A DNA stretch of 33,009 nt from Candidatus Woesearchaeota archaeon. Lineage in GTDB: Archaea > Nanobdellota > Nanobdellia > SCGC-AAA011-G17 > JAFCDX01. Where the stretch lies: NCBI GenBank assembly GCA_017609465.1, contig JAFCDX010000009.1:1-33009 (forward strand), read 5' to 3'. Shown in pieces: positions 4,101 to 26,418 of this stretch. The notes beneath the pieces were generated by a model. It did no database searches, was not told the DNA's origin, and saw only the letters and a list, made by a program, of their open reading frames with translations. Each line of letters begins with the position of its first letter. Positions within the stretch are counted from its first letter, which is position 1. Position numbers and translations under genes: made by a program.

Positions 4101-7100
4101 TGCATAATTTCCTCTTTCACCTGTTTCAGAATAAACAAACTCTTCTAATGAAAGATAATAATCATTGCTATCTGATTTGTATATATTAATATCTTCCTTG
4201 AAAGAAACTTTTAATTTATCCAAATATCCATTGCTCTTAATTTTTTCTATACAATTTGTATCATCTCTTCCAACACATTCCAATTCTGCTTTTTCATTAT
4301 AGGCTTTGCTTCCTCTTATACCTTTATCCCCATATTTGGGTATTGATAATTTTATTGTATTGAATTGCTTTCCTGATTTTATATAACCAACATATTGTCC
4401 ATTTCCTTGATCTGAAACAGTAGTAAGCACATCTTTAATCTCAACACCATATTCTTCTTTTGCTTCTTCTTTTAAATCATCTTCATCATAACTTTCTTTT
4501 AGCTCAGAATTTAAACTCAAGGTTCTTAAATGATTATATTGACTCAAAACTTTTACTTGTTGTTCATAAGTAAGGGTATTGAATTGATTTTCATTGGTTA
4601 AGTAAGTTGAATATGATTTCCCATTTAATTGAACCCCCTCCAATGTGTTTAATGCAATTGTTGTTGCTTCTGTTTCTTCATTAATTATTGCTGTTGCTTC
4701 TTCGCACTTAACATCAAATTCACTTAAATATCTTTCACCAATGTTAATATTTAGATTTTCTTCCTGATAAGCAACACAATATTTGTAATAGTCTGAGAAA
4801 ACATTATCTGGAATCTCGTATTCTATTCCTGCTCCTTGTTTTAATTTATCAAATTTATCAACATTTTCTATATTTAAATTACATTTATCTTGTTTCTCTG
4901 CAATTGTTTTTGCTTTTTCACATTCCTCTGCAGTCTCTATAAAATTTTCTGCAATATCCAGATTAGATTCTATTTCACTTGATAAATCATTCATACAATC
5001 ATCATAAGTAGGATATTGCCCTTCTTCCCTTCCTATTTTATCTTTACAATATTCAGAATAAACAGGCATTATATCCTTTCTTGCCTTGTTTCTCTCAACC
5101 ACATTTCCAAGGAAAGAATTCTTTACAATCAAATAACTCCAAGTAACAAGACATACATTTTTCCAATTCTTAATCAAATCTGTCAAAGTATCTATGTTAC
5201 TGTTAAGATTTTCTATTATATCTTCATTTTTTTCTATTTGGTCCTCAACTTCATCAGGATTGAATTGGATTGCTCTTTTGTCTATTGGAAGATGAACAAG
5301 GAAACTTGATTCAGAATACGCATTTCCTGTTCCGGGGTAAACAGTAACATAAGCTCTTTTGTTTGATATTATATCTGTTAATTTTACATTTTTTCCATCT
5401 ATATTTCTTTCTTCTCCTTTTCTTATTTCAATTTTTTCATTTGTGGGTCTTCCATCAATATATTGCCTTAATACAACATAATTATTTCCTGTGTCCTGTA
5501 TTTTCCATTCAGAAAGAGTTCCTGAAGACCTTACAACAAAAAGGGTCTCTGGAAGATTATTTGTATATCTTGTCTCTGATTTTCCATCAACAACAAATTT
5601 AACATTGCTTTTTTCTGACTCTGTATTCTCTACAAGATTTATACTCTTTAAACTTAATTTAACGCCTTCATCCCTTAACCAAACTATATTTGTCTTAACA
5701 TTTTTTATTGCCTTTTCTTTAATTTCTTCTGCATCATCATTTTTCCCTGCTTTCTTATAATAATAATACGAGAGTCCCAATATATTCTCCCTTACTTCTT
5801 TTGATTCTTCATCCAGTCTTACATCTTCAAATTCATAATGTTCTGATAATTTATCAAATGCTTTTGCAATTTGTGAATATATTTCATTATCTTTTTCTTC
5901 TTCCCCTGTGAGTGCTTTTTGATATTCTTTGACAGATGTGCAATAAAGCCTTCTTGCATCTCGTGTGATTAATTCTATTTGGGAAGGCATTGTCTTTCCT
6001 GAAACAGAAGCCAATTCTATTTTTTCTTTAACTAACATCTCATTAAGGATAGCATTTTCACTATAGAAATCGTCTATTATATATTCATCAGAACATACTT
6101 CTCTTTCTGTTTCCCTTACATTTTCTTCTCCAATGGTTTTTATCCCAATATTTTCAGATGTTTTCTTGTATTCTCTTGTCAATGTCTGGGTTTGTCCAAA
6201 GATATTTTCAATAACAACTCTTTCAACAAATTTTCCATTTTGAGTTATTCTTTCAATGCTTCCCTCTTGTATCTTCCAATTAGAACCCGGGAAAATTCTT
6301 TCTTCTTCTGTTAACTTTCTTCCTATTTCACTATCACCAAAATCAACCTCTATTGATGCTGTGTCTTTTGGATCTGTTACTTTGTTTAATTTAATTCTTA
6401 TTCTATCATTAAAAAAGGATGAGCTTCCTGGCAATGTTAATATCCTTGATTCCCCTTCGCTTAATGTTATTATTCCCCTGCTTTCAAATTCATCATCCTG
6501 ATAAGGTATTGCCGGAATAAGCCCTGAACCATATAATTGCACTTTAGCTCTTCCGCTTTCTGCATCTATTAATCTTAAATATCCTTTTCTGTTCCAGAAA
6601 GAAGATTCAGGGGCATTCTCTTCCCAATCTTCTTCATCAGTAGATTCCTTTAAAACTAAATCAACAGCTGATTTATCTCCAAAACCAGATGTTGTATCAA
6701 AGAATACTTTCATGCTCATGTTAAGAACTATTTCATCAGGAACCTCATTTTCATTTGGAATCTTTTTTAATAAAACCACCAAATACCCCATATTCTGCAA
6801 GTCCATATCCAATCTATTTGGTCTTATATAATAAGGACTTCCTACAACATACTCCCTTGATCTTGGATCAAGAGTTACATAAGCTCTTTTTATTCTTGGA
6901 GTTGACAAGAAAGGAGATGCTTCTGTACCTCCTTCCCCAAATAATAATGAGCCAGCAGTATGTCCACTCAAATAAACATAAACAGGAGTATTTGAATTTT
7001 CTATGAATTTGCTTTTTAGAGGAGCTTTTGGTTCTATGTCTGCAACATTAATCACTATTGCTTCACCCAGGTTTATTGTTCCTCCTGCAAAATCCCCTGC

Positions 7101-7274
7101 ATACAAGTCACTGCTTCCAAATCTAGAATCTGTATATGCCCTATCTATACTTGGGAATCTCTGAGATTCAAAATAATCTATTGAAAATGATATTGGTGTA
7201 ACTAGTATAAACAATATCAATGATATTGCTATTAATTTCTTATTCAGGATATCTGAAGTTTGGGTTGTTTTCAT
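1146..7274 (-). CDS. giant secreted cysteine-containing protein, possible adhesin
   Basis: A 2042-residue protein of unknown function. It starts with a hydrophobic Sec-type signal (about residues 12-32, LIAISLILFILVTPISF) and has no C-terminal membrane anchor that I can see, so it is probably secreted. A long central part is rich in E/K/N/D with helical stretches. A cysteine cluster with CDPVVCP lies near residues 1190-1200, and a second Cys-rich block near 1868-1941. At least four copies of a beta-like module with a GES/GEE core (near 265-328, 608-648 and two in tandem at 1761-1861) are visible. The first 35 bases overlap the end of the upstream 658-residue pilin-like gene, so the two are probably translationally coupled and work together. 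Surface adhesin or filament-associated protein is inference; I recognise no enzymatic domain. Confidence 0.85.
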   Translation of the reverse strand: MKTTQTSDILNKKLIAISLILFILVTPISFSIDYFESQRFPSIDRAYTDSRFGSSDLYAGDFAGGTINLGEAIVINVADIEPKAPLKSKFIENSNTPVYVYLSGHTAGSLLFGEGGTEASPFLSTPRIKRAYVTLDPRSREYVVGSPYYIRPNRLDMDLQNMGYLVVLLKKIPNENEVPDEIVLNMSMKVFFDTTSGFGDKSAVDLVLKESTDEEDWEENAPESSFWNRKGYLRLIDAESGRAKVQLYGSGLIPAIPYQDDEFESRGIITLSEGESRILTLPGSSSFFNDRIRIKLNKVTDPKDTASIEVDFGDSEIGRKLTEEERIFPGSNWKIQEGSIERITQNGKFVERVVIENIFGQTQTLTREYKKTSENIGIKTIGEENVRETEREVCSDEYIIDDFYSENAILNEMLVKEKIELASVSGKTMPSQIELITRDARRLYCTSVKEYQKALTGEEEKDNEIYSQIAKAFDKLSEHYEFEDVRLDEESKEVRENILGLSYYYYKKAGKNDDAEEIKEKAIKNVKTNIVWLRDEGVKLSLKSINLVENTESEKSNVKFVVDGKSETRYTNNLPETLFVVRSSGTLSEWKIQDTGNNYVVLRQYIDGRPTNEKIEIRKGEERNIDGKNVKLTDIISNKRAYVTVYPGTGNAYSESSFLVHLPIDKRAIQFNPDEVEDQIEKNEDIIENLNSNIDTLTDLIKNWKNVCLVTWSYLIVKNSFLGNVVERNKARKDIMPVYSEYCKDKIGREEGQYPTYDDCMNDLSSEIESNLDIAENFIETAEECEKAKTIAEKQDKCNLNIENVDKFDKLKQGAGIEYEIPDNVFSDYYKYCVAYQEENLNINIGERYLSEFDVKCEEATAIINEETEATTIALNTLEGVQLNGKSYSTYLTNENQFNTLTYEQQVKVLSQYNHLRTLSLNSELKESYDEDDLKEEAKEEYGVEIKDVLTTVSDQGNGQYVGYIKSGKQFNTIKLSIPKYGDKGIRGSKAYNEKAELECVGRDDTNCIEKIKSNGYLDKLKVSFKEDINIYKSDSNDYYLSLEEFVYSETGERGNYAQNAKLQIDSKGRPYCIPARDGDYYWIKGGDDAWNTLGEPIKGFVYKMNVGPDGELCTEDDVLIEDPEELARDTNEFGKLKSLTRGLKCDPGEDLGIPIAGRSWKCEDRAHREDTKGLETHCQDVMDPSDCRTLFTVCDPVVCPASRFDFGGAYNFGNDESIVQKGIIGSLILGQRNFNKPICLPGVLAGLENIKSVFVDLNECLRTQVASGENTGICDTIRSVGICEILWREAITVFKLRGSLIGVINEKLYGEEARSGGEYLGNLNQKLDAVSENIDYFTKQYATSSFESFRGKSTEEIGGEVCKAAVYGKFSDVGDFVDQLSEPERPPQATGWFSESPWSLQGGQTLDQQGRPRYQQQSEYSVYYHIYAGNVPEFAKTGYTRQGIRYSVYLTNADRSQTLPVISNDPNKYYGILPYEQSADQTIVTYGPSGLDRMCIWLNGREFCGIGKASTSFAVNAAQDLFVEDEALRQDINSMEDCVPEYSRTSPSLGSIALPRKYGATSTGLIRICSVRDPNEATDPGKWKVVGNCGKDEQGHNLGYCWLDKESVSIDNVYKREDVLEQLSIDESKIKASRNAVDEIKIKFFDEANSKTYYDALKTRYEDLSKQDIDKIKKKNELLNLLSGSVQGLVGQTSTGENIVVNFRELSIYSQDAETKLKAQYMVGQIYYDLGNLLNTGNTLVAEEIEKGSKGDITTKEKEDKEEDIITFPISKEYKLKLGESLDLPMKLEGIRVIVSINKININDGSASIGVPGLRESIELKKGESKSIPYNNYNIKYNLNNIDFATNEVDLNIEISKREIETKEISCNDCNEIYGGCKTDKRCNSYDTEKADCYLNYETILWISKKTTCEICPENCRELNLEKECSNCNKCGWSEFRESCSNKNDLEKDYYFGKEIDSNWDVKRIIRNFYSNKESNNDDFIRRFLLYKDNKDSFDDSGRFITGKRITIPLTDEELNSNPNNKRILFIDEDEKTTVAQSEGR

Positions 7275-9216
7275 TGTCTTCTATTGAAAAATATAAACTG
7301 CTTAATTCTTGCTGAGTTCCTGGAATATTATCAACCATTGTATAAAATGTTATTTGATTTTTATTAATTGTTTCGTAATCAAGATTCCATTCAAATTCAG
7401 CCCCTCCTTTAATAACTTCATCAACAATAATGTCATCTATATCAACATTAAAACATTCCTCATCTTTTTTATACAATCCTAATATAGTTGGTATTTTTGT
7501 TTCAATGCATTTTTCATAACTTTGCCCTCTCAATGTAATTGGCCATGTGCTATCTCCAATTACATAAGATTTTATATTATATTCACCTGGAATTAAATTT
7601 ATTTTTTCAATATCGGGATAAACAAAGGTCGCTGAAAAATCATTATTTTTATTTTCAAGCTCAAAAATTACTCTTTCGGATTCATAAGGGTCTCTTACAT
7701 CCCCTGTATTTTTTTCAATCAATCTAACATCTATGTTTTTTTCTCTTAAAGGTTCTAAAATTAAAATAATTTGTTTTTCTTCGTTTGTTGTCAAAAATTT
7801 TTCTGCCTTATAGTATCCTTCTTTTTCTCCTATTAATAAGCCGTTCATGCAGAAAGGAAATTCTTCAGTAAGCACTGCTTCATTAAATTCATCCTTTCTT
7901 GATATTCCCATTTTGCATTTTGTTGTAAAGCATTTGAAATTTATATTAACATTTTCCAATGGCTGTATATTTCCATATTGATCTGTTCCGAATGTAAATA
8001 CTGTTATTTCATTAGAAGGGTTTTCACAAATAGGAAAATCAAGCTCAGGCAATTCCAAATTACCAAGCTTATTTTCCTTTGGCTGGTTGTTTTTAATTAT
8101 AACTTGAGTAGCATACTGAAAAACAAAATTCTCGTTTGTTGAATCCACTAATGTAATTAATAAAGGATACTGAATGTCATAAACAAAATGATAATTATCT
8201 ATACATAAGAAAGAACCTAAGGCCCCTAATGAATCTGAAAATTCCCTGGTTATTTGATCTGATTTTAATATTCCATTTTCAGAAGGATAAATATCAACTT
8301 TAGTTGGCCATGTAGGAGAATACAAGAAAAAAGAATCTGAAGTTACATCATTCAACCCCATACTAAAATAACCTCCTATAGCATTTTCTTGTGAAGGTTT
8401 CAATGCACCTAGATTTAATGAAATCAAGTCTTTTAATTCCTGAATAATCTCATATTTACTCCAAACTTTCTCTGTACAAGTTAATTCAGTTCCAGATAAT
8501 GGGATTTCGTCATAAGAAGCTATAACATCAAAAGTTTTTTCTTCAAATATATTTGTTGTTTGCTCAATTTCCTGAATTTTTCTTGCTTCATCATACAATT
8601 TTCCAAAAGGAACTTCTATTATAGCAAAATGCTTGTCTAAATTAAAATTAAAATCCTTTAATGATACTTCTACAGGTAAATCAACACTTACTATTGTTCT
8701 TTCATCTTCAATCAATATATTTGTTTCAGGTTCATAATCAATGGAAAAATCATAACCATCTTCCGAAAAACCATTTAGACTTGCAACACAAACACCTATA
8801 TTTTCTATTATAAATCTTGAAATTTGTTCCTTGACTTCATCTTCATCAGGAATTTGAGACCTTTGTATCCCATTTGATGTTTCATAAAACCAATAAGGAA
8901 CTTCTTGACCAGAACTTAAAGACAATGCATTAGAAAAAGGAGTTATGGGATTTACAGGAAGATTATCTTCTGGAACATATACATATCCTCCCTGTGAACC
9001 TGCTCTTTTTAATGCTTCACTCGTAATTCCATATAGGCACCCATCCATAAATTCCTTTACAGGACGCACCTGCTCAGGCACATTGGCATATTTTTCAATA
9101 TCTCTTTCTAAAGAAGATTTTAATATGCCCCCTCTTATTAAAAATATGGTAACAACCGCTACTAAAATAACAAATCCAATAATTAGATATACAGTAATTT
9201 GACCTCTTTTTTGCAT
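7240..9216 (-). CDS. large pilin-like secreted protein with class III signal
   Basis: A 658-residue protein whose N terminus (MQKRGQITVYLIIGFVILV) is a class III prepilin-type signal. A short basic head ends in RG, then Q and a single hydrophobic helix to about residue 26, so a prepilin peptidase would cleave after G5. The rest is a long, mostly beta-like extracellular region with scattered cysteines and no further membrane segment. Its end overlaps the start of the 2042-residue secreted protein by 35 bases. The size is far above a normal major pilin, so a tip or minor pilin that displays or partners the giant protein is likely. No named domain was recognised. Confidence 0.85.
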   Translation of the reverse strand: MQKRGQITVYLIIGFVILVAVVTIFLIRGGILKSSLERDIEKYANVPEQVRPVKEFMDGCLYGITSEALKRAGSQGGYVYVPEDNLPVNPITPFSNALSLSSGQEVPYWFYETSNGIQRSQIPDEDEVKEQISRFIIENIGVCVASLNGFSEDGYDFSIDYEPETNILIEDERTIVSVDLPVEVSLKDFNFNLDKHFAIIEVPFGKLYDEARKIQEIEQTTNIFEEKTFDVIASYDEIPLSGTELTCTEKVWSKYEIIQELKDLISLNLGALKPSQENAIGGYFSMGLNDVTSDSFFLYSPTWPTKVDIYPSENGILKSDQITREFSDSLGALGSFLCIDNYHFVYDIQYPLLITLVDSTNENFVFQYATQVIIKNNQPKENKLGNLELPELDFPICENPSNEITVFTFGTDQYGNIQPLENVNINFKCFTTKCKMGISRKDEFNEAVLTEEFPFCMNGLLIGEKEGYYKAEKFLTTNEEKQIILILEPLREKNIDVRLIEKNTGDVRDPYESERVIFELENKNNDFSATFVYPDIEKINLIPGEYNIKSYVIGDSTWPITLRGQSYEKCIETKIPTILGLYKKDEECFNVDIDDIIVDEVIKGGAEFEWNLDYETINKNQITFYTMVDNIPGTQQELSSLYFSIEDNENNPNFRYPE

Positions 9217-13884: not shown

Positions 13885-14586
13885 TTAAGATGCAAGTGTT
13901 TTTTCTATGCCAAATACTATATTTATATCTTTTAAATCACATGGGTTTTTAATTGACTTATACTCATAAATCTTGGCATTTTCATCACTAAATACTGCTT
14001 TAGCACCTATTTCTTTCAGGCATTCTTCCCTGCCTTCTTTGTAAATACAATAAAGTAATACTTCAAAATCATCAAAATTATCCAATAATTCTATATTCAC
14101 TATTGGGTTTTGTCTTGATTGTATGGACAATTTTCCGATTTGTTTTTCAAACTCAACATTATTTTTAGGCAATATTTTTTTATTATTAACATCTAAATCA
14201 TACTCGAAAGATATATTTTTTCTTGAAAGATATTTTTCAAAATTATCCTTAAAATAAGCATTGAATCTTCTTTTGTAATCGGCAGGATCGCATTCTTCAT
14301 TCTTGTTTATTCCAATATCCCATATAGGATAGTCATTGTAAATGCAAGGTATATTTTTTCCAGATGACATATCGACTAAAGAATCGCACCATGCTAATCT
14401 TGCAGAATCTTTTATATAAAAATAATTTAATTCTGATTCTGTTATAAAATTTATAACTTCTGCTGATTTTTCTCCAACAACCTCATTCTTGCTTTTTAAG
14501 ATATCCCCATAAAAAATCATTCCCAAAGTTCCTATAATTATCAAAAGTATTATTGCAAGCATCGGCAAAAATATTCCTTTCTTCAT
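13885..14586 (-). CDS. pilin-like protein, last gene of the type IV filament locus
   Basis: A 233-residue protein with a single N-terminal hydrophobic helix after a short basic head (MKKGIFLPMLAIILLIIIG), fitting a class III prepilin signal cut after G4. The rest is an extracellular domain with several cysteines (WCDS, PCIYN, ECDP, YCIYKEGREEC, PCDL). It overlaps the upstream pilin-like gene by 4 bases (ATGA type) and is the last gene of the leftward locus. No named domain; a minor pilin is the best guess. Confidence 0.75.
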   Translation of the reverse strand: MKKGIFLPMLAIILLIIIGTLGMIFYGDILKSKNEVVGEKSAEVINFITESELNYFYIKDSARLAWCDSLVDMSSGKNIPCIYNDYPIWDIGINKNEECDPADYKRRFNAYFKDNFEKYLSRKNISFEYDLDVNNKKILPKNNVEFEKQIGKLSIQSRQNPIVNIELLDNFDDFEVLLYCIYKEGREECLKEIGAKAVFSDENAKIYEYKSIKNPCDLKDINIVFGIEKTLAS

Positions 14587-15023
14587 ATTCTCAACTCCAA
14601 CACTATATTTTCATTTCCAGGTATTTGTGTTTGTGATATAATGCTTCCTTCTGATTTTTCCAATTCTCCTATTAATTTATCCCCATCAATTTCCAAAGAA
14701 TATTTCTTATCCATGGTTTTGTCAAATATTTTTAATGATTCTTCTTTTAATTTTTCTTTATAAGAAGCATCTTTTCTATAAAGCCTTATCAGGTCGGACA
14801 TAAATATCTCATTTTCATTAACTGTAACAGGGGTTTTAAGATAATTTAACAATAAAATATCATAATTTAATTTTTCCTGTGCAACAAGACTTTCTTTTGA
14901 AGGGGTTATATTTGCAGTAGGAATTACAAAGAAATACCAATATATAACTAACAAAGCAAAAATCAATAATATCGCAAACAAACCATATACTGCTGTTGCC
15001 TGTGCTTTTTTATTTAATTTCAT
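14583..15023 (-). CDS. pilin-like protein with class III signal
   Basis: A 146-residue protein starting MKLNKKAQATAVYGLFAILL. The KKA/Q junction followed by a long hydrophobic helix fits a prepilin peptidase site after A7. The C-terminal part is a small soluble domain without cysteines. It overlaps both neighbours by 4 bases, which indicates tight translational coupling in the filament operon. Function is inferred from signal type and location only. Confidence 0.78.
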   Translation of the reverse strand: MKLNKKAQATAVYGLFAILLIFALLVIYWYFFVIPTANITPSKESLVAQEKLNYDILLLNYLKTPVTVNENEIFMSDLIRLYRKDASYKEKLKEESLKIFDKTMDKKYSLEIDGDKLIGELEKSEGSIISQTQIPGNENIVLELRI

Positions 15024-15532
15024 CTTTGATCTCCTGAACCTTCAAATTTCCTTTCAGAAAATTCATACTCTCCAGCATTATATTTTTTCAATAATATATC
15101 TACTTCAAGAAATTCCGGAATTTTATTATCAATCAATACATACTCTTTTGTAGTATAGCATGTATATGGGAAATTATCCAAATCAGCACCACACAATTCC
15201 CGGTTTCCTTTGTAAGTTTCCTCATTAACATAATATTCTTCATTGCTATTAACTAAAGATATCTTCAAAGAAGCATCTTTAAAACCAAGACAATTTTCCA
15301 AAATTTCTAATTTTGATTTGTCTATTGACCCTAAATTTTTCCTTTCTTCACCATAAGATATACATGAAAGCATTTTATGATAAACCAATTGCGATTCATA
15401 TTCACTTATTTCTATGTCTCTTGATATATGGACATAAATTCCTGACACTAAAGTAACTAGTATTATTATCAATAAGAAAAATCTTACAAACCATATTGGT
15501 GTTTCTAATCCCAAATCATACCCTTTTTTCAT
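15020..15532 (-). CDS. pilin-like protein with class III signal
   Basis: A 170-residue protein starting MKKGYDLGLETPIWFVRFFL. The basic head ends in KKG, and the hydrophobic helix begins about ten residues later, further from the site than in its neighbours. The extracellular part has cysteines (LSCIS, ENCLG, ELCGA, YTCYT) that could form disulfides. It overlaps both neighbouring genes by 4 bases. Minor pilin is the likely role. Confidence 0.75.
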   Translation of the reverse strand: MKKGYDLGLETPIWFVRFFLLIIILVTLVSGIYVHISRDIEISEYESQLVYHKMLSCISYGEERKNLGSIDKSKLEILENCLGFKDASLKISLVNSNEEYYVNEETYKGNRELCGADLDNFPYTCYTTKEYVLIDNKIPEFLEVDILLKKYNAGEYEFSERKFEGSGDQR

Positions 15533-15918
15533 TTTACTATAATCTGTTCCTGTTTCTTGTTAATTTCTAAAAATGGAAATTTGGCCTCTCCTGAAGCAAT
15601 GTTTGAGGCAATGCATCTGTAAGAAACATAATTTGACCTATCATTCTTTAAAACTTTTACTAGGCAAGGATCGTTTAATATTTCTAATATAAAATCCTCT
15701 TCTTCATAAGTTATTTTTATATTTAGATTGTCATTTGAAATAGATACAGAATCAATCAATAATGAGGTATCCAATGCAGTGCTTTTCATCTTAAAAGCAG
15801 TATCATCTCTTAAATCAACTGCAAAAACAATTAATATTGCTCCAACCATAAATGCCAAAATCAAATAGAACAAATAAATGAATAGCTTTTCTCCACCAAA
15901 TTCTCCCCTTTTATTCAT
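15529..15918 (-). CDS. pilin-like protein with class III signal
   Basis: A 129-residue protein starting MNKRGEFGGEKLFIYLFYLI. The KRG/E junction with Glu at +1 and a hydrophobic segment from about residue 12 to 31 fit an archaeal prepilin-like signal. A short extracellular domain of about 90 residues holds two cysteines. It overlaps the next gene by 4 bases and follows the M23-like gene after 36 bases. Confidence 0.75.
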   Translation of the reverse strand: MNKRGEFGGEKLFIYLFYLILAFMVGAILIVFAVDLRDDTAFKMKSTALDTSLLIDSVSISNDNLNIKITYEEEDFILEILNDPCLVKVLKNDRSNYVSYRCIASNIASGEAKFPFLEINKKQEQIIVK

Positions 15919-15954: not shown

Positions 15955-17076
15955 TTAAGCTGTTGATATTTCTTTTTGTTCTGTTAAAACAATTTTATTT
16001 GATTCTAAACTATCTAAAAACACTATTGGATTTAATATTCTATCATCTTTATTTTCTAAATATAATTCTGCACATATATTATTTTTTCTTTCAAGAATTT
16101 CATCAGAATACCATACAATATTACTTGAAACTCCTGGTTTATAAACTTCAAGATGGAGCATTCCACATGTGGTTGCTTTTCCTAAAAATTGTCCTGCCTC
16201 AACTTTTTCTCCAACACTTACAGCAACATCTCCTTCATTAATCTCTCCATAATTTACAACAAAATCACCATGGTCAATAATTAATGCAATAGCAGGGCCT
16301 CCTGAGCATATATTTGTAAAAGTATAAATATTAATCACTTTTCCTTTTGTTATTGCTCTAATTCTCCCTTCTCCCTTTGTGAAGATATCGTTGCCCACAT
16401 GACATCTCTTAAATACACCATTTGTTTTTCTTCTATCACCCCAATTTCTTAGGTTTGTTGATCTACTATCTGAATAGATTGGATAATAAAATTCTCTTTG
16501 TTCATCAATTTCAATAGATTTATACTCTTTTTGCCCTTCTTTAGGAGAAAGAAATTCTGATTCTATCTCTGAAGCCTCTGTATTTATAAACAAATGATCT
16601 AAATCTTTAGCAAAAAATAATTCTTTTAATAAACCATCTCCTTTTTTAATTATATTTTTTTCTCCATCATAAATACTTATTGAATTAATGCCTTCTATTT
16701 CTTTACAATAATTTTCCACACATTCATTATTATTTAATTCACACACACATAAAAATGAACTTATTTTATTTTCATTAAATCTTTGGAATATGTTTGTTGG
16801 AGTATTAATATTTCCTGTAGCTCCTGATTTAAAGAAGCCGACCAATGCACATTTATCTTCTCTTAATATTATTCCAGATTCTCCTTCTGTTTTTTGATTA
16901 ATCAAGAATGCTAATGAGTCCAACGAGCTTTCTACTTCATCACCAAGACATACAGAAGAAGTTGGAAAATAAACCTCTTTTAATTTAAAGGTTATACCTA
17001 TCAAGGATAATGCAATTATAAATCCTACAATCAAAAAAATAGCAAACTTTAAAGTGGTTATTTGTCCTTTTACCAT
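15955..17076 (-). CDS. pilin-like N-terminus fused to degenerate M23 (LytM-type) domain
   Basis: A 373-residue protein. The start MVKGQITTLKFAIFLIVGF is a class III prepilin-type signal (cut after G4) with a single helix. Residues about 35-195 are an extracellular linker with cysteines. Residues about 196-325 match the M23/LytM fold: RCHVGNDIF carries the zinc ligands H226 and D230, followed by a VNIYTF-like strand, IIDHGDFVVNYGEI, VSVGEKVEAGQFLG and GMLHLEVY with the third zinc ligand H308. The two catalytic histidines of active M23 enzymes look replaced, with Y-G-E where Y-x-H is usual (E278) and M306 where HxH has its first His. So it may bind zinc or a glycan without cutting. The gene sits inside the pilin operon, 1 base after the upstream gene. 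Confidence 0.85.
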   Translation of the reverse strand: MVKGQITTLKFAIFLIVGFIIALSLIGITFKLKEVYFPTSSVCLGDEVESSLDSLAFLINQKTEGESGIILREDKCALVGFFKSGATGNINTPTNIFQRFNENKISSFLCVCELNNNECVENYCKEIEGINSISIYDGEKNIIKKGDGLLKELFFAKDLDHLFINTEASEIESEFLSPKEGQKEYKSIEIDEQREFYYPIYSDSRSTNLRNWGDRRKTNGVFKRCHVGNDIFTKGEGRIRAITKGKVINIYTFTNICSGGPAIALIIDHGDFVVNYGEINEGDVAVSVGEKVEAGQFLGKATTCGMLHLEVYKPGVSSNIVWYSDEILERKNNICAELYLENKDDRILNPIVFLDSLESNKIVLTEQKEISTA

Positions 17077-17077
17077 T

Positions 17078-17281
17078 TTATATCTCTGATGATATTAAAC
17101 TATTTATAATTTCCTTGAATTTTGAAATTATATCTCCTGATGTTCCAGACAGTATCAATGCCATTATAATCAAAGCCAAAACAGCAAGTATTGTAGCTAT
17201 TATTGTCTTTAAGGGAAGTTCCTGCCCTTTTTTATTCTTAAAAAAATTAAATAGGTTCAGAAGAACATTCTTCATCTTCAT
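17078..17281 (-). CDS. small pilin-like protein
   Basis: A 67-residue protein consisting of a basic head (MKMKNVLLNLFNFFKNKKG), a prepilin-type junction KKG/QELPL, a hydrophobic helix (TIIATILAVLALIIMALIL) and a 20-residue tail. The size and Q-E after the Gly are close to small archaeal major pilins. Its start overlaps the upstream gene by 35 bases. A later Met (codon 3) is possible as start. It is a candidate major subunit because it is almost all helix, but that is inference. Confidence 0.75.
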   Translation of the reverse strand: MKMKNVLLNLFNFFKNKKGQELPLKTIIATILAVLALIIMALILSGTSGDIISKFKEIINSLISSEI

Positions 17282-17618
17282 TTTCTATTACAGGACAATT
17301 CACGTTAAGTCTTTTACAGGTTTGTTGCTCTAAATCGGCCTCTCCATCTCCGTCAGAATCTATATCAAATGTCTTTCCACCGCAGAAATTATCCCTATAA
17401 GAAGGTAATCCTGTCAAATCATAATTTTCACAATAACCATTACACTGCAATTGCGCGGATGAAACATCTATTGCTGAAGATCCTACAACTCCTCTTATTT
17501 TGTTTATCAAAGAAGACATTCCTCCTGTAAAAAAGACTGCAACTACAACAAGAACCAAGACAACTAATATGGTGATTATTATTGTATTCATAGAAAGTCC
17601 TTGTCCTCTTTTTTTCAT
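17247..17618 (-). CDS. cysteine-rich pilin-like protein with Ca-binding-type loop
   Basis: A 123-residue protein starting MKKRGQGLSMNTIIITILVV, a clear class III signal cut after G5. The extracellular part of about 85 residues has six cysteines (59, 63, 79, 101, 108, 118) and an acidic loop, DIDSDGDGEAD (D85, D87, D89, D91, with D95), of the EF-hand or thrombospondin-3 type that usually binds calcium. A disulfide- and Ca-stabilised minor pilin is likely. It overlaps the next gene by 35 bases. Confidence 0.8.
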   Translation of the reverse strand: MKKRGQGLSMNTIIITILVVLVLVVVAVFFTGGMSSLINKIRGVVGSSAIDVSSAQLQCNGYCENYDLTGLPSYRDNFCGGKTFDIDSDGDGEADLEQQTCKRLNVNCPVIENEDEECSSEPI

Positions 17619-17657: not shown

Positions 17658-18260
17658 TTAAATGTTTTGTTCTTCACATTGGCTTAATTTAATGCTATCT
17701 AAATTAACATTCAATAATTCAGGTATTATAAAACAAACATTATCTCCTTTTTTGTAAAAATTTCTTTCTTCTGAATAAGCAAAAGGCAAATTATATTCCC
17801 CATAATTTGAATCTGATGGTAATCCTATAATAACATAAGGATTTGCTTTAAATCCTAATTTCATATTGTTAGGTTCTTTTATAACAAGTTTGTTATTTTC
17901 AAAAGCAAGATAGCATTTTAAATTCCCTTCATATTCATGCTCTATTCTTCCAATTACACCTTTTTCATAAAATGTAATTGTATTTGGTTTAGAGAATCCA
18001 AATAAATACTTTGAAGGGAAATTTATTATTTTTATTGAACATAAACATCCTTTTTCAGGGGAATTTTTGTTTAAGCATTTATCAAATTCTGAAAACATGA
18101 CTTCTGCAGCTTCTTGAATTGATTTTGTATCTCCCTCAACAGGATTTGGACCAAATCCAAGAAATTTATCTGCAATGGGTCTTCCCAAAGTTAGGAAAAA
18201 AATACTAATTCCTATCACAATCAAAGTTAATATTCCATAAACAATTGTTTTTGTTTCCAT
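17658..18260 (-). CDS. membrane-anchored extracellular protein of the filament locus
   Basis: A 200-residue protein with one N-terminal hydrophobic segment (IVYGILTLIVIGISIFFLTL) directly after METKT and no G/A prepilin site, so it is probably anchored, not processed. The outer part has cysteines (KCLN, GCLCS, KCYL, VCFI, QCEE) and predicted strands. Its ATG overlaps the stop codon of the upstream 52-residue gene by one base. Not recognised otherwise. Confidence 0.72.
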   Translation of the reverse strand: METKTIVYGILTLIVIGISIFFLTLGRPIADKFLGFGPNPVEGDTKSIQEAAEVMFSEFDKCLNKNSPEKGCLCSIKIINFPSKYLFGFSKPNTITFYEKGVIGRIEHEYEGNLKCYLAFENNKLVIKEPNNMKLGFKANPYVIIGLPSDSNYGEYNLPFAYSEERNFYKKGDNVCFIIPELLNVNLDSIKLSQCEEQNI

Positions 18261-18418: not shown

Positions 18419-19150
18419 TTAAAATATACCTGCACTTTTACATACTTCATTTATATTATCTATATCTCCTTCCAATAATAAAAAAGGGCAATATTCAAAA
18501 TCTCCTGTTAAATCCTTTTGTATATATCTTGAATATATTCCAAAAAGAGGATTTCCATATTGAATTATATTATTAAGGATATTTAATTTTTGAACAGCTC
18601 CGTATATGATATATAAATTGTCATTCACTTCTATTTCATTTAAACTTTCTTTTAACTTTAATCTTTTTTCTTCATCAACATTTTTATATAAATAATCTGC
18701 ATAACCTTCATTTTCCAAATAGTCATAAAAACCATTTAATTTTTCTCCTTTTAATGAATCATCAAAAACTATTGTAGCGCAAGGACTGCAATATACTTCT
18801 CTTCCTCCAAAATTATATTCTCCAAGAAAATTTAATTCTCCTGCACCAAACTTGTACCAGCAATCATACATTGCATTTGCCATTTCCTCTTTTGCTTCTC
18901 TCTCCCAATTTCTTGATCTTTCAATTATTACTGGTTGCTGAGGTTTGCATTTCAATGGTGAATTTATTAATTCCTTTCCTAAAATTTTAGAATTTGCTCT
19001 TATTTCAACACTTTGTCTGCATGCCTCTATATCTGACCTAGACTCAAAAAAAGTTAGAGTATTTCCAATTGTAGGTATTAATATGATTAATGCTGCTGCT
19101 AGAATTATCAAAGTTACTACAAGGGCCATAGACATTCCTTTAGAATCCAT
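18419..19150 (-). CDS. pilin-like protein with cysteine-containing ectodomain
   Basis: A 243-residue protein starting MDSKGMSMALVVTLIILAAA, with a KG junction before a long hydrophobic helix, a plausible prepilin signal. The ectodomain has at least seven cysteines (ACRQS, KCKPQ, DCWYK, YCSPC, YCPFL, VCKSA) including a CSPC pair. It overlaps the upstream 42-residue gene by 11 bases and abuts the downstream 52-residue gene. Likely minor pilin. Confidence 0.75.
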   Translation of the reverse strand: MDSKGMSMALVVTLIILAAALIILIPTIGNTLTFFESRSDIEACRQSVEIRANSKILGKELINSPLKCKPQQPVIIERSRNWEREAKEEMANAMYDCWYKFGAGELNFLGEYNFGGREVYCSPCATIVFDDSLKGEKLNGFYDYLENEGYADYLYKNVDEEKRLKLKESLNEIEVNDNLYIIYGAVQKLNILNNIIQYGNPLFGIYSRYIQKDLTGDFEYCPFLLLEGDIDNINEVCKSAGIF

Positions 19151-19302: not shown

Positions 19303-21444
19303 TTATAATCCTCCAAGACCCAAGCTTCCTGCTAATATGGCCATTCCTAACAAATTAAACAGCAAAATTACGACAGCTGAAATTCCAACATACAATATAG
19401 AACCTCTTATCAAATTTTTTCCCAGTAAATATTCTTCATTGGTCTTGTCAGTTCCATTTTCAATACCGTTTGCTAGAATGGTCAGTATGTAAATTAATTC
19501 TATTATGTAAATACCAACAATTATCTGAAAGAAATAAGATGGGATAACGTCAGCTGGATTAAATAATTCTATCCATCCTGCAAGACCTTCAACACTACCT
19601 GAAACACCCTCAAGATTTCCTGTTCCTCCTGCTGCAAGACTTCCAAATATGTCTGTCATGTTTACAATTATATTAACTATCATTGAACCAATACCAATAA
19701 CTATTCCTGCAATTAGGGGGGCCATAAAAGAAATCTGGGATTTCATGGAAGAAATTATTTCGGATAATAAATCCTTTAATCTTTCATTTACCTTATGTAT
19801 CTCAGAAACATAATTTGATATACTTGTAAGAGCTTGTGCTGCTATCTTAGATCCTTTTTTAATGCTCTCTAATAATATTTCCATTGAAGATTGAATCAAT
19901 GATGATGGGTAATATAATATTGCTCCTGTTTTCAGATTAAAAATAGCTTCTTTCAAGTTCATTCCAAAATTTCTTATATTTACTGAAACTATTCTGAAAA
20001 AATTTCCTGTTGGTGTTCCAGCCATGTTTTTTGCAACAGTCCCGAATGCCAATTCTGCAGGCACTCCGTCTGCCAACCTGTTTCCTAGTTGGAATAAAGA
20101 TGATGCAAACTCTTTTTCAAGTTTTTTTGTCTCGTTTCTTATTTTGACAATATCTTTTGTCTTTAATTTATAATATAATCCAATTCCCAGTCCTAAACCC
20201 AAGGGAATTGAGAGACTCATTAATAAAGCTCCTAAACCAAAAGGGCCACATTCTCCGTCGCATTTGTAATCCATAAAATTACCAAAAAAGGATCCTAATT
20301 CAAAATCAAAACCAGGAATTATAAAATGAATTATTAATGGGAAAAAACCCAAAAACAACATTGAAACTATTATTAAAGTTGGTAAAAAAAGAGATGTTTT
20401 TCCGGACATTTTTTTCTGCATTTCTGATTCCCCATAACCTGTTGGTCTTTTTATTAATAAATTATAACCAAAAACAAAAACAGTTACAGGCAAAATAACA
20501 TTGTATAATAATGCCAAATGATACCATCTTATATATTCTCCCATGAAAGACGCTAACAAAGGAAATATAACAAGTCCTAAAATTGGTAATATAACTCCAA
20601 GCATATGTAGCATTGTAATGGGGTTTTTTAGATCATGAGCATAATGGAGCATTTTTTCATAAGTCCCTTCAAGCATTACTTCCAAACTTTTATCTAATAA
20701 TTGCAGTCTTCTTTCTTGTGAAGGCTCCATCAAAGAGGACTCTACCAAATGGAATGAGTTTATAAATTCAAGATTATATTCTCTCCAAGTTTCAAGATAA
20801 TGGTCGAGGGATCCTCTTATTGTAGGAAAGGTTCCTGTCTCAACATCCCAAAATACTTTTCTAAAATCCAATGATAAAGGAGGCCCTATGTGAGAAGATG
20901 CAAACTTTATTGCATGTTCAAGATTTGAAGTGTGCCTCATGTATATAACAACATAAAGCATACATAAGACCATTTGGTTGCTTGCCTTTAATCTCCAGCT
21001 GTTTGCTATATAAACAGGAAGTTTTGATAAAGGCTTGAAAATTATTGCTGCTGTTAATATTATTATCAAGGGAAAGAATATCATTAAATTGTCAAACAAC
21101 AAATATACAAAAGCTGAAAGAAATATTGCAAACAATATAAGAAAACCAGAGATTAATGTAGCAAAAGTTACAGCCCCTTCAGGACTAATCTGCAAATGTG
21201 CTGTCTCTATTGATCTGTTTATTTCATCATAATCCTTTGCAGGAGCATTAACAGAAATTATATTTTCTGCCTTATTACATAATTTTTCGTACCATGACAA
21301 TGAAGAAGGAAGTGATTCTTTTCTAAACTGTTTATATTCACTGGAAAATTTAGTATCAGAGGGGATTTCATCCATCTTGACACTTCCTTCCAATCTCTTT
21401 TCATATTTTTTTAAAATGTCTTTTACATCCTCTGCTATGTTCAT
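19303..21444 (-). CDS. type IV filament platform protein with two T2SF domains (TadC/FlaJ-like)
   Basis: A 713-residue polytopic membrane protein, the assembly platform of a type IV filament. The first T2SF-like part is about residues 160-330 (ending in LGVILPILGLVIFPLLASFM) and the second about 435-640 (FASSLFQLGNRLADGVPAELAF ... LKDLLSEIISSMKSQISFMA), each followed by membrane helices; roughly nine to ten TM segments in all. Archaeal FlaJ-type proteins carry the same duplication. The ATG overlaps the ATPase stop by 4 bases, and GAGGTGA lies immediately upstream. It is the expected partner of that ATPase. Confidence 0.92.
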   Translation of the reverse strand: MNIAEDVKDILKKYEKRLEGSVKMDEIPSDTKFSSEYKQFRKESLPSSLSWYEKLCNKAENIISVNAPAKDYDEINRSIETAHLQISPEGAVTFATLISGFLILFAIFLSAFVYLLFDNLMIFFPLIIILTAAIIFKPLSKLPVYIANSWRLKASNQMVLCMLYVVIYMRHTSNLEHAIKFASSHIGPPLSLDFRKVFWDVETGTFPTIRGSLDHYLETWREYNLEFINSFHLVESSLMEPSQERRLQLLDKSLEVMLEGTYEKMLHYAHDLKNPITMLHMLGVILPILGLVIFPLLASFMGEYIRWYHLALLYNVILPVTVFVFGYNLLIKRPTGYGESEMQKKMSGKTSLFLPTLIIVSMLFLGFFPLIIHFIIPGFDFELGSFFGNFMDYKCDGECGPFGLGALLMSLSIPLGLGLGIGLYYKLKTKDIVKIRNETKKLEKEFASSLFQLGNRLADGVPAELAFGTVAKNMAGTPTGNFFRIVSVNIRNFGMNLKEAIFNLKTGAILYYPSSLIQSSMEILLESIKKGSKIAAQALTSISNYVSEIHKVNERLKDLLSEIISSMKSQISFMAPLIAGIVIGIGSMIVNIIVNMTDIFGSLAAGGTGNLEGVSGSVEGLAGWIELFNPADVIPSYFFQIIVGIYIIELIYILTILANGIENGTDKTNEEYLLGKNLIRGSILYVGISAVVILLFNLLGMAILAGSLGLGGL

Positions 21445-23747
21445 TCACCTCTTTTTTCAAGACTTCTGAGTTTGATGTTCTTTTTTAATTCTTGTTCCCA
21501 TTTATTAAATATCTTTTTATTGTTCAGTTTTCCTTCTTTTTCTTTAACCTCTTCCATAACTCGGTGGAATACATCATTAAAATATATTGTTGATTTTGCT
21601 TCAAGCAATTCAGGCATTTTGTATTTCTTTGAATAATCAACCAAAGTTTCTTTTATTTTTGCTCTTAGTAATATGTTTTCCCAAACAGCATCCCAGCTTC
21701 CTGCCCATTCCTTTACTTTTCCTGCAACATTTTTTATTATCTCTGAATCTCCGTTTATTAATTCCTGAGTTGGTTCAAGAGAATCTGTATGAGGATTATA
21801 AACCATCAGGTCAACAAAACCTTTCTCTCTTAAGGGGTCTTCTTCCCACGTCTTTCTAACTTCTGTTATTTGGGTTACACGCCTCATTGAATGAAGACCA
21901 TCAGGAGACTTTACAGGATTACAAATCACTATTATGTCTGTTGCTTTAAAGCTTGTTCTTGGAACTTCTAAATCATTAACAACTCTGTCAAAAACACCAT
22001 AAGGACTGTCTCCATGAATTGTTCCTGCAACAACATTTGCCAATGCCCCAACTCTCATAGCCTCATACAATGCCAATGCTTCTTTGCTTCTTATTTCTCC
22101 CACAATCAATGATGAATCCCCTAATCTCAATGATGTTCTTATACCTTCATCTGCTGCAAGTTCTGCACCTTTACCCATCAATGCAGCTCTTACTTTCATT
22201 GGTTGTATATTATAACCCAATTCTCTTAATCTTTGAGTCGATAGTTCCATTGTATCTTCAACAGTGATTATTCTATATTTTCTCATAATTTCAATAAGAC
22301 AAGAATCTAACAAAGAGGTTTTACCTGATGATCTTGTACCTGCTATAAGCATAGTACGCGCACCATCAATCAAAAAAGATAATAATCCTGCTGCAAGAGG
22401 GCTTATCATTTTATTTTCAACAAATAAAGGAAGAGTCCATGGCTTGTCTCTATGCCTTCTGAATGCAAATGCAAGCCCGTAAGGATTAAGAGGCCTCGTT
22501 ATTATAGCAACCCTGTTTTTTGATTTTGGCAATTCCAATTCTGTATCTAAAACAGGATTTGCCTCATCAAGAGGTCTTCCCGATATCAACCTGAATTTTG
22601 TTGCCCATGATTCTCCATCATCAGATGAGGGGTATATGTTTGTAACACACTCCCCATAATCTGCATGAACTATAAAAATTGGTGTCTGACCTATTGGACC
22701 ATTAATCGTAACATCCTGAATTCTCTTATCATTAAGAAGAATTTCCATAAGTCCAAAACCAACAGTATAACGAACAAGTATTTCAGCCATTTCCTCTATT
22801 TCATTATATTCTATCTCAATATTTTTAGATGTTGCTAGCTCAGTTATAAGATCTTTTCCTATGTTGAAGAAAGTTTTTCTCATTCTTTCAACATCAACAA
22901 ACTCTTCGGATTTTGGCTTGTGCTCAGAAAGAACAGAACGGGCTAAATTTAATAACATGAACTTGTCTTCAGACAATTTGAATTCAGGGGGGCTTAAATG
23001 ATACAGTGTCTTTATATCACCTGGAATTTTATACATATTGACTTCTGTTTTTTCATCTACAGAATAAGTATCCAATAATTCCCCATTGATCGGGTGATCT
23101 ATTGTTAATTTTGTAAACATGAAATCTGGAGTTATTATTGGCCTGAATATGTTTCTGTAAACATCTCTATTGCCAAGAGAATAACCATCAAGATACGGTT
23201 TTGCCATCTCAATCATTTTTGTATTGTCAAGAAAGGCCAGAATATTCCTTAATAGGTTAATGAAATGTTCTCTGCAGTTTATGCATCTTGGAATTGTTGT
23301 TTTCTTTAGTATTATGTTTTCCTCCCTTATCATTCTTTTTAGTTCAACATAAGCTCCAAGAGGATCTGATTTTAACAAGCTTAATATTATATATTGTATC
23401 TGAGAAAGTCTTGTAGGATAGCAATTCATGCAGTTTGGTGAAGTTCCCATTGCATTTAATGTCAAAACTTTTTTTTGTTTTATGAAATGATTGTAAATAT
23501 TTGCTACTTCTGTTAGCATTGATGTTTGTTCATAACCGTATTCGTAATTTTTTCCCATTTGCGAGAAAATTATTTTTACAACACTTGGATTCTGGGTTAA
23601 GAATTCTATTGTACGCGACATGCACAACGAACTGTCTTCAATAGAGGGAGAATACGGATAATTATTATAATTAATTTGTATTACTTCCTCTTCACCCTCT
23701 TTTACTATTTGGTAATAGCCGGGCTTAACCTTTTTATTAAATAACAT
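21441..23747 (-). CDS. type II/IV secretion system ATPase (TadA/FlaI/PilB-like)
   Basis: A 768-residue hexameric secretion ATPase that powers filament assembly. Seen: Walker A GTRSSGKTS (about 470-478), the Asp box ITVEDTMEL, a Walker B-like LIVGEIRSKEA, and the His box GTIHGDS. The N-terminal part holds two CxxC pairs (C106/C109 and C155/C158) likely to bind zinc. It is longer than typical PilB or FlaI because of this N-terminal region. It is the first gene of the leftward locus, divergent from the coiled-coil genes with only 38 bases between. Confidence 0.93.
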   Translation of the reverse strand: MLFNKKVKPGYYQIVKEGEEEVIQINYNNYPYSPSIEDSSLCMSRTIEFLTQNPSVVKIIFSQMGKNYEYGYEQTSMLTEVANIYNHFIKQKKVLTLNAMGTSPNCMNCYPTRLSQIQYIILSLLKSDPLGAYVELKRMIREENIILKKTTIPRCINCREHFINLLRNILAFLDNTKMIEMAKPYLDGYSLGNRDVYRNIFRPIITPDFMFTKLTIDHPINGELLDTYSVDEKTEVNMYKIPGDIKTLYHLSPPEFKLSEDKFMLLNLARSVLSEHKPKSEEFVDVERMRKTFFNIGKDLITELATSKNIEIEYNEIEEMAEILVRYTVGFGLMEILLNDKRIQDVTINGPIGQTPIFIVHADYGECVTNIYPSSDDGESWATKFRLISGRPLDEANPVLDTELELPKSKNRVAIITRPLNPYGLAFAFRRHRDKPWTLPLFVENKMISPLAAGLLSFLIDGARTMLIAGTRSSGKTSLLDSCLIEIMRKYRIITVEDTMELSTQRLRELGYNIQPMKVRAALMGKGAELAADEGIRTSLRLGDSSLIVGEIRSKEALALYEAMRVGALANVVAGTIHGDSPYGVFDRVVNDLEVPRTSFKATDIIVICNPVKSPDGLHSMRRVTQITEVRKTWEEDPLREKGFVDLMVYNPHTDSLEPTQELINGDSEIIKNVAGKVKEWAGSWDAVWENILLRAKIKETLVDYSKKYKMPELLEAKSTIYFNDVFHRVMEEVKEKEGKLNNKKIFNKWEQELKKNIKLRSLEKRGE

Positions 23748-24782: not shown

Positions 24783-25298
24783 CTAAGCTACTTCTTTTGA
24801 AATTAATTTTATTGCCAATGATGCTATTATAAGTATAAATATTGCACCAAGAACTCTTGGATGGAATAAAGTCTTAAGGGTTTGCCCACCAATAGTTTTT
24901 CCATCATCACTTTCTTCATAAGGGGTAAATAATTCTTCAAAAACAGTTACAAACCCAACCAACAAAATAAGAAATATTACTATTAAAATAGTCCATATAT
25001 TGAGAGTGTCCCATATATCTTGTTTAGATTTTCCCAAAAATAAAAAAACTGCAAATAATAATGTCAAAAATATGAATAAGAACGCAAACCATGGAACTAC
25101 AAAACTTATTAAATCAATTGCAGGCTGCACAAATAAAGATACCAATGCTATTGATAGGGCTGCAATAAAATTAAGGGAATCGTTTTTTGATAATAATTCT
25201 GTGCTCTTTAATACTGCAAACAACACCGTAAATATAAATATGAATACAAAAAATGGTAAGAAATGCAATAACAATGTTGTATCTAATAATGTTGCCAT
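24783..25298 (-). CDS. multi-TM protein, copy 3 of tandem paralogue triplet
   Basis: A 171-residue integral membrane protein with about four to five TM segments and little outside the membrane. The N-terminal FLPFFVFIFIFTVLFAVLKS segment corresponds to the conserved LPFLLVFAI-FA-LEK motif of the two genes upstream, though it is more diverged. It is the last gene of the tandem set; it starts one base before the previous gene ends, and the convergent plus gene stops right at its end. Function unknown. Confidence 0.75.
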   Translation of the reverse strand: MATLLDTTLLLHFLPFFVFIFIFTVLFAVLKSTELLSKNDSLNFIAALSIALVSLFVQPAIDLISFVVPWFAFLFIFLTLLFAVFLFLGKSKQDIWDTLNIWTILIVIFLILLVGFVTVFEELFTPYEESDDGKTIGGQTLKTLFHPRVLGAIFILIIASLAIKLISKEVA

Positions 25299-25299
25299 T

Positions 25300-25833
25300 T
25301 TATTTTCCTTTTAAACTATTAGCAAATTTTTCAATCCATGAGTCATTTGAAGTTTTTGATCTTCCAATATATGATATTACAATCACAATAGTAACAATCA
25401 ATATTATCCATGCTTTTTCCTGAGCATCAGGTCTGAACCATTCTGGAAATATGAATGCACTTCCGGGATATAATGCCCATATAATAGCAAGTATTGAAAT
25501 TATGAATGCTACAAACAATGCATATCCACTCCAATCTCCTGCTTTTGCACCAAACATTCCTGCTATAACTAAAAACATCAAAACAACTATTATAAACATT
25601 GAAACTTTTGGAATAAAATTATTTATCAAATAAGTTATTTCAGGTCTTGATATTAATATTAATCCTGAAATTAAAGCAATTATTAAATTAACGTTTTTTT
25701 TATCATTCCCAAAGATTTGCAATTTCTCAAGTACAGCAAATAGTATTGCAAATACCAAAAGAAATGGGAGTATGAAATCATAAATACCCATTGCCTGTAA
25801 TTCTAAAAACACCGATGTAAAATCTACAACCAT
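25300..25833 (-). CDS. multi-TM protein, copy 2 of tandem paralogue triplet
   Basis: A 177-residue integral membrane protein with about five TM segments. The signature YDFILPFLLVFAILFAVLEK is followed by IFGNDKKNVNLIIALISG and, in the third helix, VVLMFLVIAGMFG. The same pattern is in the neighbouring copies. The ATG is preceded by a strong SD, GAGGTGATTT, located after the upstream stop. Function unknown; duplication is evident. Confidence 0.8.
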   Translation of the reverse strand: MVVDFTSVFLELQAMGIYDFILPFLLVFAILFAVLEKLQIFGNDKKNVNLIIALISGLILISRPEITYLINNFIPKVSMFIIVVLMFLVIAGMFGAKAGDWSGYALFVAFIISILAIIWALYPGSAFIFPEWFRPDAQEKAWIILIVTIVIVISYIGRSKTSNDSWIEKFANSLKGK

Positions 25834-25845
25834 TAAATCACCTCA

Positions 25846-26418
25846 TTACTTATCCTCATTTCCTCCTTTTCCTCCAACAATATAAATTATTGCTCCAACG
25901 ATAACAGCTAACAAAATTAAACTTGAAACTATTGAACCCCCCCAATAGTTTAATACATAATCATAACCATATCCTAACCATGATTGTCCTGAGCTTGTTT
26001 CTATTGCCCCCAAAAAGATTAATATTACACCTATAAACATTATTGCAATAAAAATTTTATAATAATTTTCATGTTCTCCTTTTAAAGAGAATTCATTTGT
26101 TGTTGCAAAAACACCAACTAACATAAGGAATGAAACTGCAACGATTACCAACAACACAATATTTGGCAATGCTGTTGTTATTGCATTAACTATCTGGTTT
26201 GAAGCTACAACAAACAAAGCAATAACAAAAGAAACCATTGAATTAAGATTCTTTTTTGGAATTTGATCTTCCTTTTTTCCTTCTGTGCCTAATATCCTTG
26301 TCTTTTCAAGTATCGCAAAAACAATTGCAAAAACAAGAAGGAATGGAAGCACTACATCAAATAAACCAAAATTTTTGAAAAACTGAATAGCATTTGCTAA
26401 AGGTGAAGATTCTACCAT
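25846..26418 (-). CDS. multi-TM protein, copy 1 of tandem paralogue triplet
   Basis: A 190-residue integral membrane protein with about five TM segments. The signature FDVVLPFLLVFAIVFAILEK is followed by RILGTEGKKEDQIPKKNLNS and VVASNQIVNAI, then FLMLVGVFA, close to copy 2. It has the longest charged loop after the first helix. It is the first gene of the triplet; no gene function is recognised. Confidence 0.8.
   Translation of the reverse strand: MVESSPLANAIQFFKNFGLFDVVLPFLLVFAIVFAILEKTRILGTEGKKEDQIPKKNLNSMVSFVIALFVVASNQIVNAITTALPNIVLLVIVAVSFLMLVGVFATTNEFSLKGEHENYYKIFIAIMFIGVILIFLGAIETSSGQSWLGYGYDYVLNYWGGSIVSSLILLAVIVGAIIYIVGGKGGNEDK

Follow-up and report, generated by a model that had tools for sequence, protein, structure and literature searches.

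Replacing the catalytic histidines of M23 peptidases (LytM/lysostaphin family, PF01551) abolishes activity in the enzymes that have been studied. The M23 fold also occurs in a set of degenerate LytM domains (EnvC, NlpD, DipM, Csd2, SpoIIQ, and LECT2), in which the catalytic residues are altered. Among bacterial filaments, the Kil/Tad pili of Myxococcus xanthus carry interchangeable minor-pilin tips that are used in predation (PMC12075869). Archaeal peptidoglycan hydrolases that kill bacteria have been described, and zoocin-like M23 proteins were counted in four Nanoarchaeia genomes (PMC12352652). Putative "vampiristic" (predatory) Woesearchaeota with lytic transglycosylases have also been reported (PMC9723730).

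The locus described here lies in a window (the whole stretch of DNA that was analysed) of 33,009 nucleotides from a Candidatus Woesearchaeota archaeon. It comprises a pilus operon whose fourth pilin-like position, slot 4, encodes P0001, a prepilin with a C-terminal M23-fold domain (Table 1). P0001 resembles the M23 peptidases in fold, in the order of its motifs, in the HxxxD motif and final His, and in the Tyr that precedes the catalytic position. It differs in that Glu and Met replace the catalytic histidines, the Glu being common to all members of a branch that we call E-type, and in that the domain is fused to a prepilin. With the degenerate LytM domains it shares the M23 fold and altered catalytic residues; in the E-type branch, however, the zinc triad does not vary and Glu, the replacing residue, is itself conserved. 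The degenerate zinc motif that characterizes the EnvC/NlpD type (PMC8594824) is absent from P0001, whose triad is intact. The Kil/Tad pilus and the P0001 operon would both produce a type IV-family filament with variable minor-pilin domains facing another cell, but the word hydrolase does not occur in PMC12075869, whereas here the varying domains are murein-enzyme folds, in an archaeon. The hydrolases of PMC12352652 likewise are bacterial-type wall-enzyme domains in archaea; the ones studied combine a catalytic domain with one that binds the wall, and pili and pilins go unmentioned in that work. PMC9723730 also concerns a DPANN lineage and a proposed attack on bacterial murein; it lists genes by function and mentions neither pili nor M23. 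No paper on hydrolase-bearing archaeal pilins was found in the literature searched, the coverage of which was incomplete and leaves priority unproven.

Table 1. Features of P0001 and of the surrounding pilus operon, in window coordinates
Feature	Position	Strand	Basis or remark
Type II/IV secretion ATPase of the pilus cluster	21441..23747	-	Pfam T2SSE 1e-13
Putative platform membrane protein (TadC-like by position)	19303..21444	-	Conserved, adjoins ATPase; no Pfam match
Pilin-like slot 1	18419..19150	-	Conserved order
Pilin-like slot 2 (SLT-bearing in G007, G031)	17658..18260	-	Conserved order
Pilin-like slot 3 (short and well conserved, may be the main pilin)	17247..17618	-	Conserved order
Small pilin-like ORF, 67 aa, ...NKKGQ signal	17078..17281	-	Overlaps slot 3
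P0001, slot-4 prepilin with C-terminal E-type M23 domain	15955..17076	-	373 aa, open frame, ATG start
P0001 class III signal and N-terminal pilin helix, residues 1-36	16969..17076	-	Sequence; model helix 6-36
P0001 pilin head/linker, residues 37-190, cysteine-containing	16507..16968	-	Common to G002, G003, and hydrolase-free slot-4 pilins
P0001 M23/LytM-fold domain, residues 226-318	16123..16401	-	Pfam match and fold search
H226 codon, zinc ligand position	16399..16401	-	Alignments
D230 codon, zinc ligand position	16387..16389	-	Alignments
E278 codon, position of LytM's first catalytic His	16243..16245	-	Glu in 15/15 E-type rows
M306 codon, position of first His of HxH	16159..16161	-	Met in 13/15 E-type rows
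H308 codon, zinc ligand position	16153..16155	-	Alignments
Pilin-like slot 5 (classical M23 in G012, G093, G094)	15529..15918	-	Conserved order
Pilin-like slot 6	15020..15532	-	Conserved order
Pilin-like slot 7	14583..15023	-	Conserved order
Pilin-like slot 8 (SLT in G061, G093, G094; Amidase_2 in G078)	13885..14586	-	Conserved order

The gene order of the operon is conserved and runs from the secretion ATPase and platform-like membrane protein through pilin-like slots 1 to 8 to an OB-fold-like and a YdjM-like gene, the last two named by inference; slots in other genomes were assigned by position and, where visible, by homology to the pilins of the window. The pilus ATPase is present in 95 of the 103 genomes of the order. 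The operon pilins begin with K/R-G/A followed by a hydrophobic helix, which we read as class III prepilin signals with predicted cleavage, and a prepilin peptidase (PF01478, 2e-14) is encoded in P0001's own genome. The T2SSE ATPase, the prepilins of class III, and the peptidase for them are three components of an archaeal type IV pilus-like machine; the membrane protein beside the ATPase is a putative fourth, the platform. Ahead of the ATPase lie three tandem multi-helix membrane proteins (24783-26418, minus strand), an order that is conserved in relatives. In many relatives, among them G001:C24, G003:C22, G041:C23, and G101:C19, a long, in-frame, intein-like insert interrupts the ATPase, giving frames mostly of ~1,250 to 1,500 aa with matches broken near residues 450 to 510; the window ATPase has no such insert. 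A DPANN-type ATPase with 59% identity was also found on a contig titled Methanosarcinales archaeon (L094, JAFCBX010000041.1), for which the bin or the title may be wrong.

The N-terminus of P0001 (MVKGQITTLKF...) leads into a long hydrophobic helix at residues 6 to 36, seen both in the sequence and in the AlphaFold model, and cleavage is predicted between G4 and Q5 (MVKG|Q). PF01551 matches residues 226 to 318 with 33 bits against a curated cut-off of 28.7, and this is the sole match to that family in the 801-kb genome. In the PDB, P0001 alone reached lysostaphin only weakly (E 0.04), whereas the profile built from related domains matched zoocin, lysostaphin, EnvC, and LytM; in PHROGs, P0001 found distant endolysin/peptidase families only, and no NCBIfam model scored above its cut-off. 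The full-length AlphaFold model was poor outside the helix and the M23 core (mean pLDDT 49), and the model of the domain alone was of moderate quality (mean pLDDT 64; 66 to 91 in ten-residue blocks of the core, mostly 70 to 90). The best PDB matches of this domain model in Foldseek were lysostaphin (E 4.6e-6), EnpA, EnvC, and LytM (5.9e-5), spanning E values of about 5e-6 to 1e-4. The first-pass annotation of this DNA had described a class III pilin signal fused to an M23/LytM fold, a reading that the signal in the sequence, the Pfam match, and Foldseek all support. Residues 1 to 175 are homologous to the slot-4 pilins of two genomes of the same family (G002, E 4.5e-9; G003, E 4.5e-7), and over its whole length P0001 had no close orthologue among 61 relatives.

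Positions 278 and 306 of P0001, which correspond to LytM catalytic histidines 260 and 291, are Glu and Met. When a profile of related domains was aligned to the solved structure of an M23 peptidase (9gy1), YGE of P0001 fell on YGH and MLH on HLH; where P0001 was aligned with four classical M23 domains found on pilins, E278 and M306 each stood opposite His in 4/4. H226, D230, and H308, in contrast, were identical in all 19 aligned rows (15 E-type and the four classical domains) and would bind zinc. The earlier proposals that the zinc ligand positions are kept and that both catalytic histidines are changed thus hold, and fold prediction with alignment to M23 returned the M23 fold, with 278 and 306 falling on the catalytic positions. 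Judged by these alignments, P0001 is an M23-fold protein; since both catalytic histidines are missing, we do not class it with the canonical M23 peptidases.

These replacements recur well outside the window. A tblastn search with the P0001 domain found bacterial and phage relatives, and a phylum-wide profile search found seven further E-type domains in DPANN genomes, scoring 80 to 103 bits versus at most 39 for all others. For this analysis we defined the E-type branch by Glu at 278, no His at 306, the zinc triad, Tyr276, and Glu310. Glu and the zinc triad are present in all 14 other M23 domains compared, which come from bacteria, phages, and DPANN archaea, and Met is present in 12 of them. 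With P0001 included, Glu278, Tyr276, Glu310, and the triad are invariant in 15 domains, and position 306 is Met in 13, Val in one, and Thr in the other; the rows were picked by similarity, so some agreement among them is expected, and their identity to P0001 is only 26 to 37%. A tree set the E-type domains apart from classical M23 domains (support 100/98). The first-pass annotation had called the catalytic histidines "lost": they are indeed replaced, but the conserved Glu across this M23 branch argues against private decay. Decay of a once-active enzyme in P0001's genome alone was rejected on the recurrence of Glu278 in 14 other domains.

E-type domains are often found together with murein enzymes. 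Four of the 14 other members carry a second one in the same polypeptide: Amidase_2 in a Sinorhizobium protein (L135), the D,D-carboxypeptidase domain M15_4 (L144), SLT (L148), and Amidase_3, which follows the E-type domain in a 2,986-aa open frame (L149, G301:C5:9257-9691). Two members (L136 and L145) showed no second murein-enzyme domain within the stretch scanned. Phages and Bosea have E-type forms with this domain alone; the phage proteins or regions measure 155 to 168 aa, and their nearest PHROG families are endolysins and peptidases. Against viral contigs, the phage E-type protein found three relatives and the Bosea protein none. One E-type match fell in Acinetobacter, a genus for which M23-domain type VI secretion effectors are listed in the literature, at genus level and not for this match itself.

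Within the pilus operons of related genomes, the C-terminal module of slot 4 varies. In G002 it consists of SLT plus Amidase_2 (5e-26 and 5e-30) and in G003 of Amidase_2 alone (8e-32), while two HMM-detected slot-4 relatives of 166 aa (L203, E 2e-7) and 172 aa (L210, E 6.5e-6) have no hydrolase, so the slot-4 domain is an add-on. Other slots are also used: SLT on slot 2 (G007, and G031, which has M23 on slot 4), classical M23 on slot 5 (G012, and G093 and G094, which add SLT on slot 8), SLT on slot 8 (G061), and Amidase_2 on slot 8 (G078). A glucosaminidase domain (6e-22) sits on a pilin-like protein without an assigned slot in a further cluster, that of L122. In alignment, the SLT catalytic Glu is kept in G002, G031, G007, G061, G093, G094, and the separate SLT protein of the window genome, and is changed to Val or Thr in the slot-4 SLT folds of G081 and G083; by eye, the catalytic His/Asp of the slot-4 Amidase_2 domains in the sister genomes look intact. 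An M15 match on slot 4 of G078 fell below the Pfam cut-off (20 versus 27 bits) and is a lead only. Possible M15-like D,D-carboxypeptidase motifs were seen in the slot-4 pilins of L200 (11374-12993), below the Pfam cut-off, and of L197 (8307-9419), by eye. Hydrolase matches within 15 kb of the ATPase numbered 15 of 162 against about 5.4 expected across three families, an enrichment that is modest (P 0.01 to 0.04 per family), partly because the genomes are fragmented. In many clusters of the order no hydrolase was detected on any of the pilins; murein attack is therefore not a core function of the pilus, and the modules are optional. Comparison of the slots across genomes shows the P0001 domain as one of several interchangeable, predicted murein-enzyme modules on this pilin set.

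The genome encoding P0001 (assembly 89% complete) had no match to the Mur ligase family PF08245 or the transpeptidase family PF00905, so a role in the cell's own wall is unlikely; Amidase_2 had no match either. It does encode a separate 289-aa SLT-type transglycosylase with an intact catalytic Glu and a hydrophobic N-terminal stretch (G000:C26, L202, 7838-8707, minus strand). The window also holds a secreted-looking giant protein of 2,042 aa (1146-7274, minus strand) that adjoins a 658-aa pilin-like protein (7240-9216). In relatives of the giant protein (L042, L044, L046, and L054) M23, accompanied in some by SLT, lies near the C-terminus; neither domain was seen in the copy in the window, which ends in a cysteine-rich region.

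Hydrolase modules on the same or neighboring pilins suggest a pilus aimed at bacterial cell walls. Hydrolases tied to pili in bacteria may ease the pilus through the producer's own wall, a need that an archaeon without murein would not have. Because the SLT and Amidase_2 domains in sister slot 4 look intact, as do M23 and SLT in neighboring slots, the likely target is murein, and an outward, murein-directed role fits P0001 best. We therefore consider P0001, with somewhat better than even confidence, to be a module carried on a pilin and directed at murein in bacteria that serve as partners or prey. The first-pass annotation had proposed a recognition device, a non-cutting domain for a glycan or peptide of a host or partner cell. 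Binding is a plausible idea, given the slot-4 SLT folds of G081 and G083 that have no catalytic Glu; the "non-cutting" part is not established, because Glu278 is conserved in 14 other branch members, and bacterial murein is the more likely target when set against an unspecified glycan or peptide of a host. A lectin for host glycans was considered and rejected: none of the evidence favors it, and neighbors and fusions point to murein.

As a murein-directed module, P0001 would be a subunit resembling minor pilins in a type IV-pilus-like machine of DPANN archaea, slot-4 pilins being presumably minor or tip subunits. Its N-terminus would be processed by the genome's own prepilin peptidase, and the protein would then be incorporated in the filament or stay anchored in the membrane. 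The outward-facing E-type domain would engage bacterial murein at its stem or cross-link peptides by means of a zinc coordinated by H226, D230, and H308, with Glu278 in place of a catalytic histidine. Either the domain would cut, with Glu278 assisting in activation of the water bound to zinc, or it would only grip murein while the separate lytic transglycosylase or other factors cut; we regard the two as about equally probable. The likely purpose would be contact with, and perhaps local opening of, the wall of a bacterial partner or prey.

The domain may instead be purely a recognition device that no longer acts as a peptidase: a zinc-stabilized adhesin at the end of the pilus that binds murein or some other surface containing peptides. 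We give this serious possibility somewhat less than an even chance. The replacement of both reference histidines is consistent with it, as are the altered SLT folds of G081 and G083, which suggest that catalytic loss may recur in this slot. Degenerate LytM domains such as those of EnvC and NlpD act by binding (PMC9662197), and pilin-borne lectin and VWA domains are adhesins in other type IV pili (PMC12075869). The slot-4 domains of G002 and G003, however, have intact-looking catalytic positions, and the zinc triad and Glu278 are invariant (15/15) across archaea, bacteria, and phages, whereas relaxed decay would not fix one replacement. The same strict conservation argues for an active zinc peptidase of altered chemistry or specificity with Glu278 as its base, a reading that we also hold at a little under even probability. 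Glu acts as a base in related LAS metallopeptidases. The phage single-domain forms, with endolysins and peptidases as their nearest PHROG families, and the repeated fusion of E-type domains to murein enzymes point the same way; yet Glu278 lies on the strand of LytM His260 and not at the M15-type ExxH position, and no activity-tested E-type protein was found in the literature searched.

An EnvC-like activator of an amidase or transglycosylase would agree with the pairing of E-type M23 with Amidase_2 or Amidase_3 in one polypeptide and with the M23 fold of EnvC-like activators (PMC9662197). We consider this improbable: P0001's own genome has no Amidase_2 match (Amidase_3 lay outside that search), and its triad is intact, whereas the zinc motif of EnvC and NlpD is degenerate (PMC8594824). 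A horizontally acquired relic drifting without function in one genome, as might be read from the single M23 match and the missing whole-protein orthologue, is very improbable given the open frame, the conserved slot, and signature residues conserved throughout the branch.

More broadly, and tentatively, at just short of an even chance, the order-wide DPANN pilus would, in lineages bearing exchangeable murein-enzyme modules, pierce the walls of bacteria, whether hosts or prey; in the E-type case the zinc site would be rewired. Its modules would include M23, E-type M23, lytic transglycosylase, amidase, and probably glucosaminidase and M15-like domains. The E-type branch poses a question for enzymology, namely what role a conserved Glu plays when it replaces an M23 catalytic His while the zinc triad stays. 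For the contact of Woesearchaeota and Nanoarchaeia with other cells, and their attack on bacteria, the earlier work considered here supplied wall-degrading genes without a delivery device; the conserved pilus operon with its murein-enzyme modules is a candidate for such a device, and its proteins can be expressed and tested.
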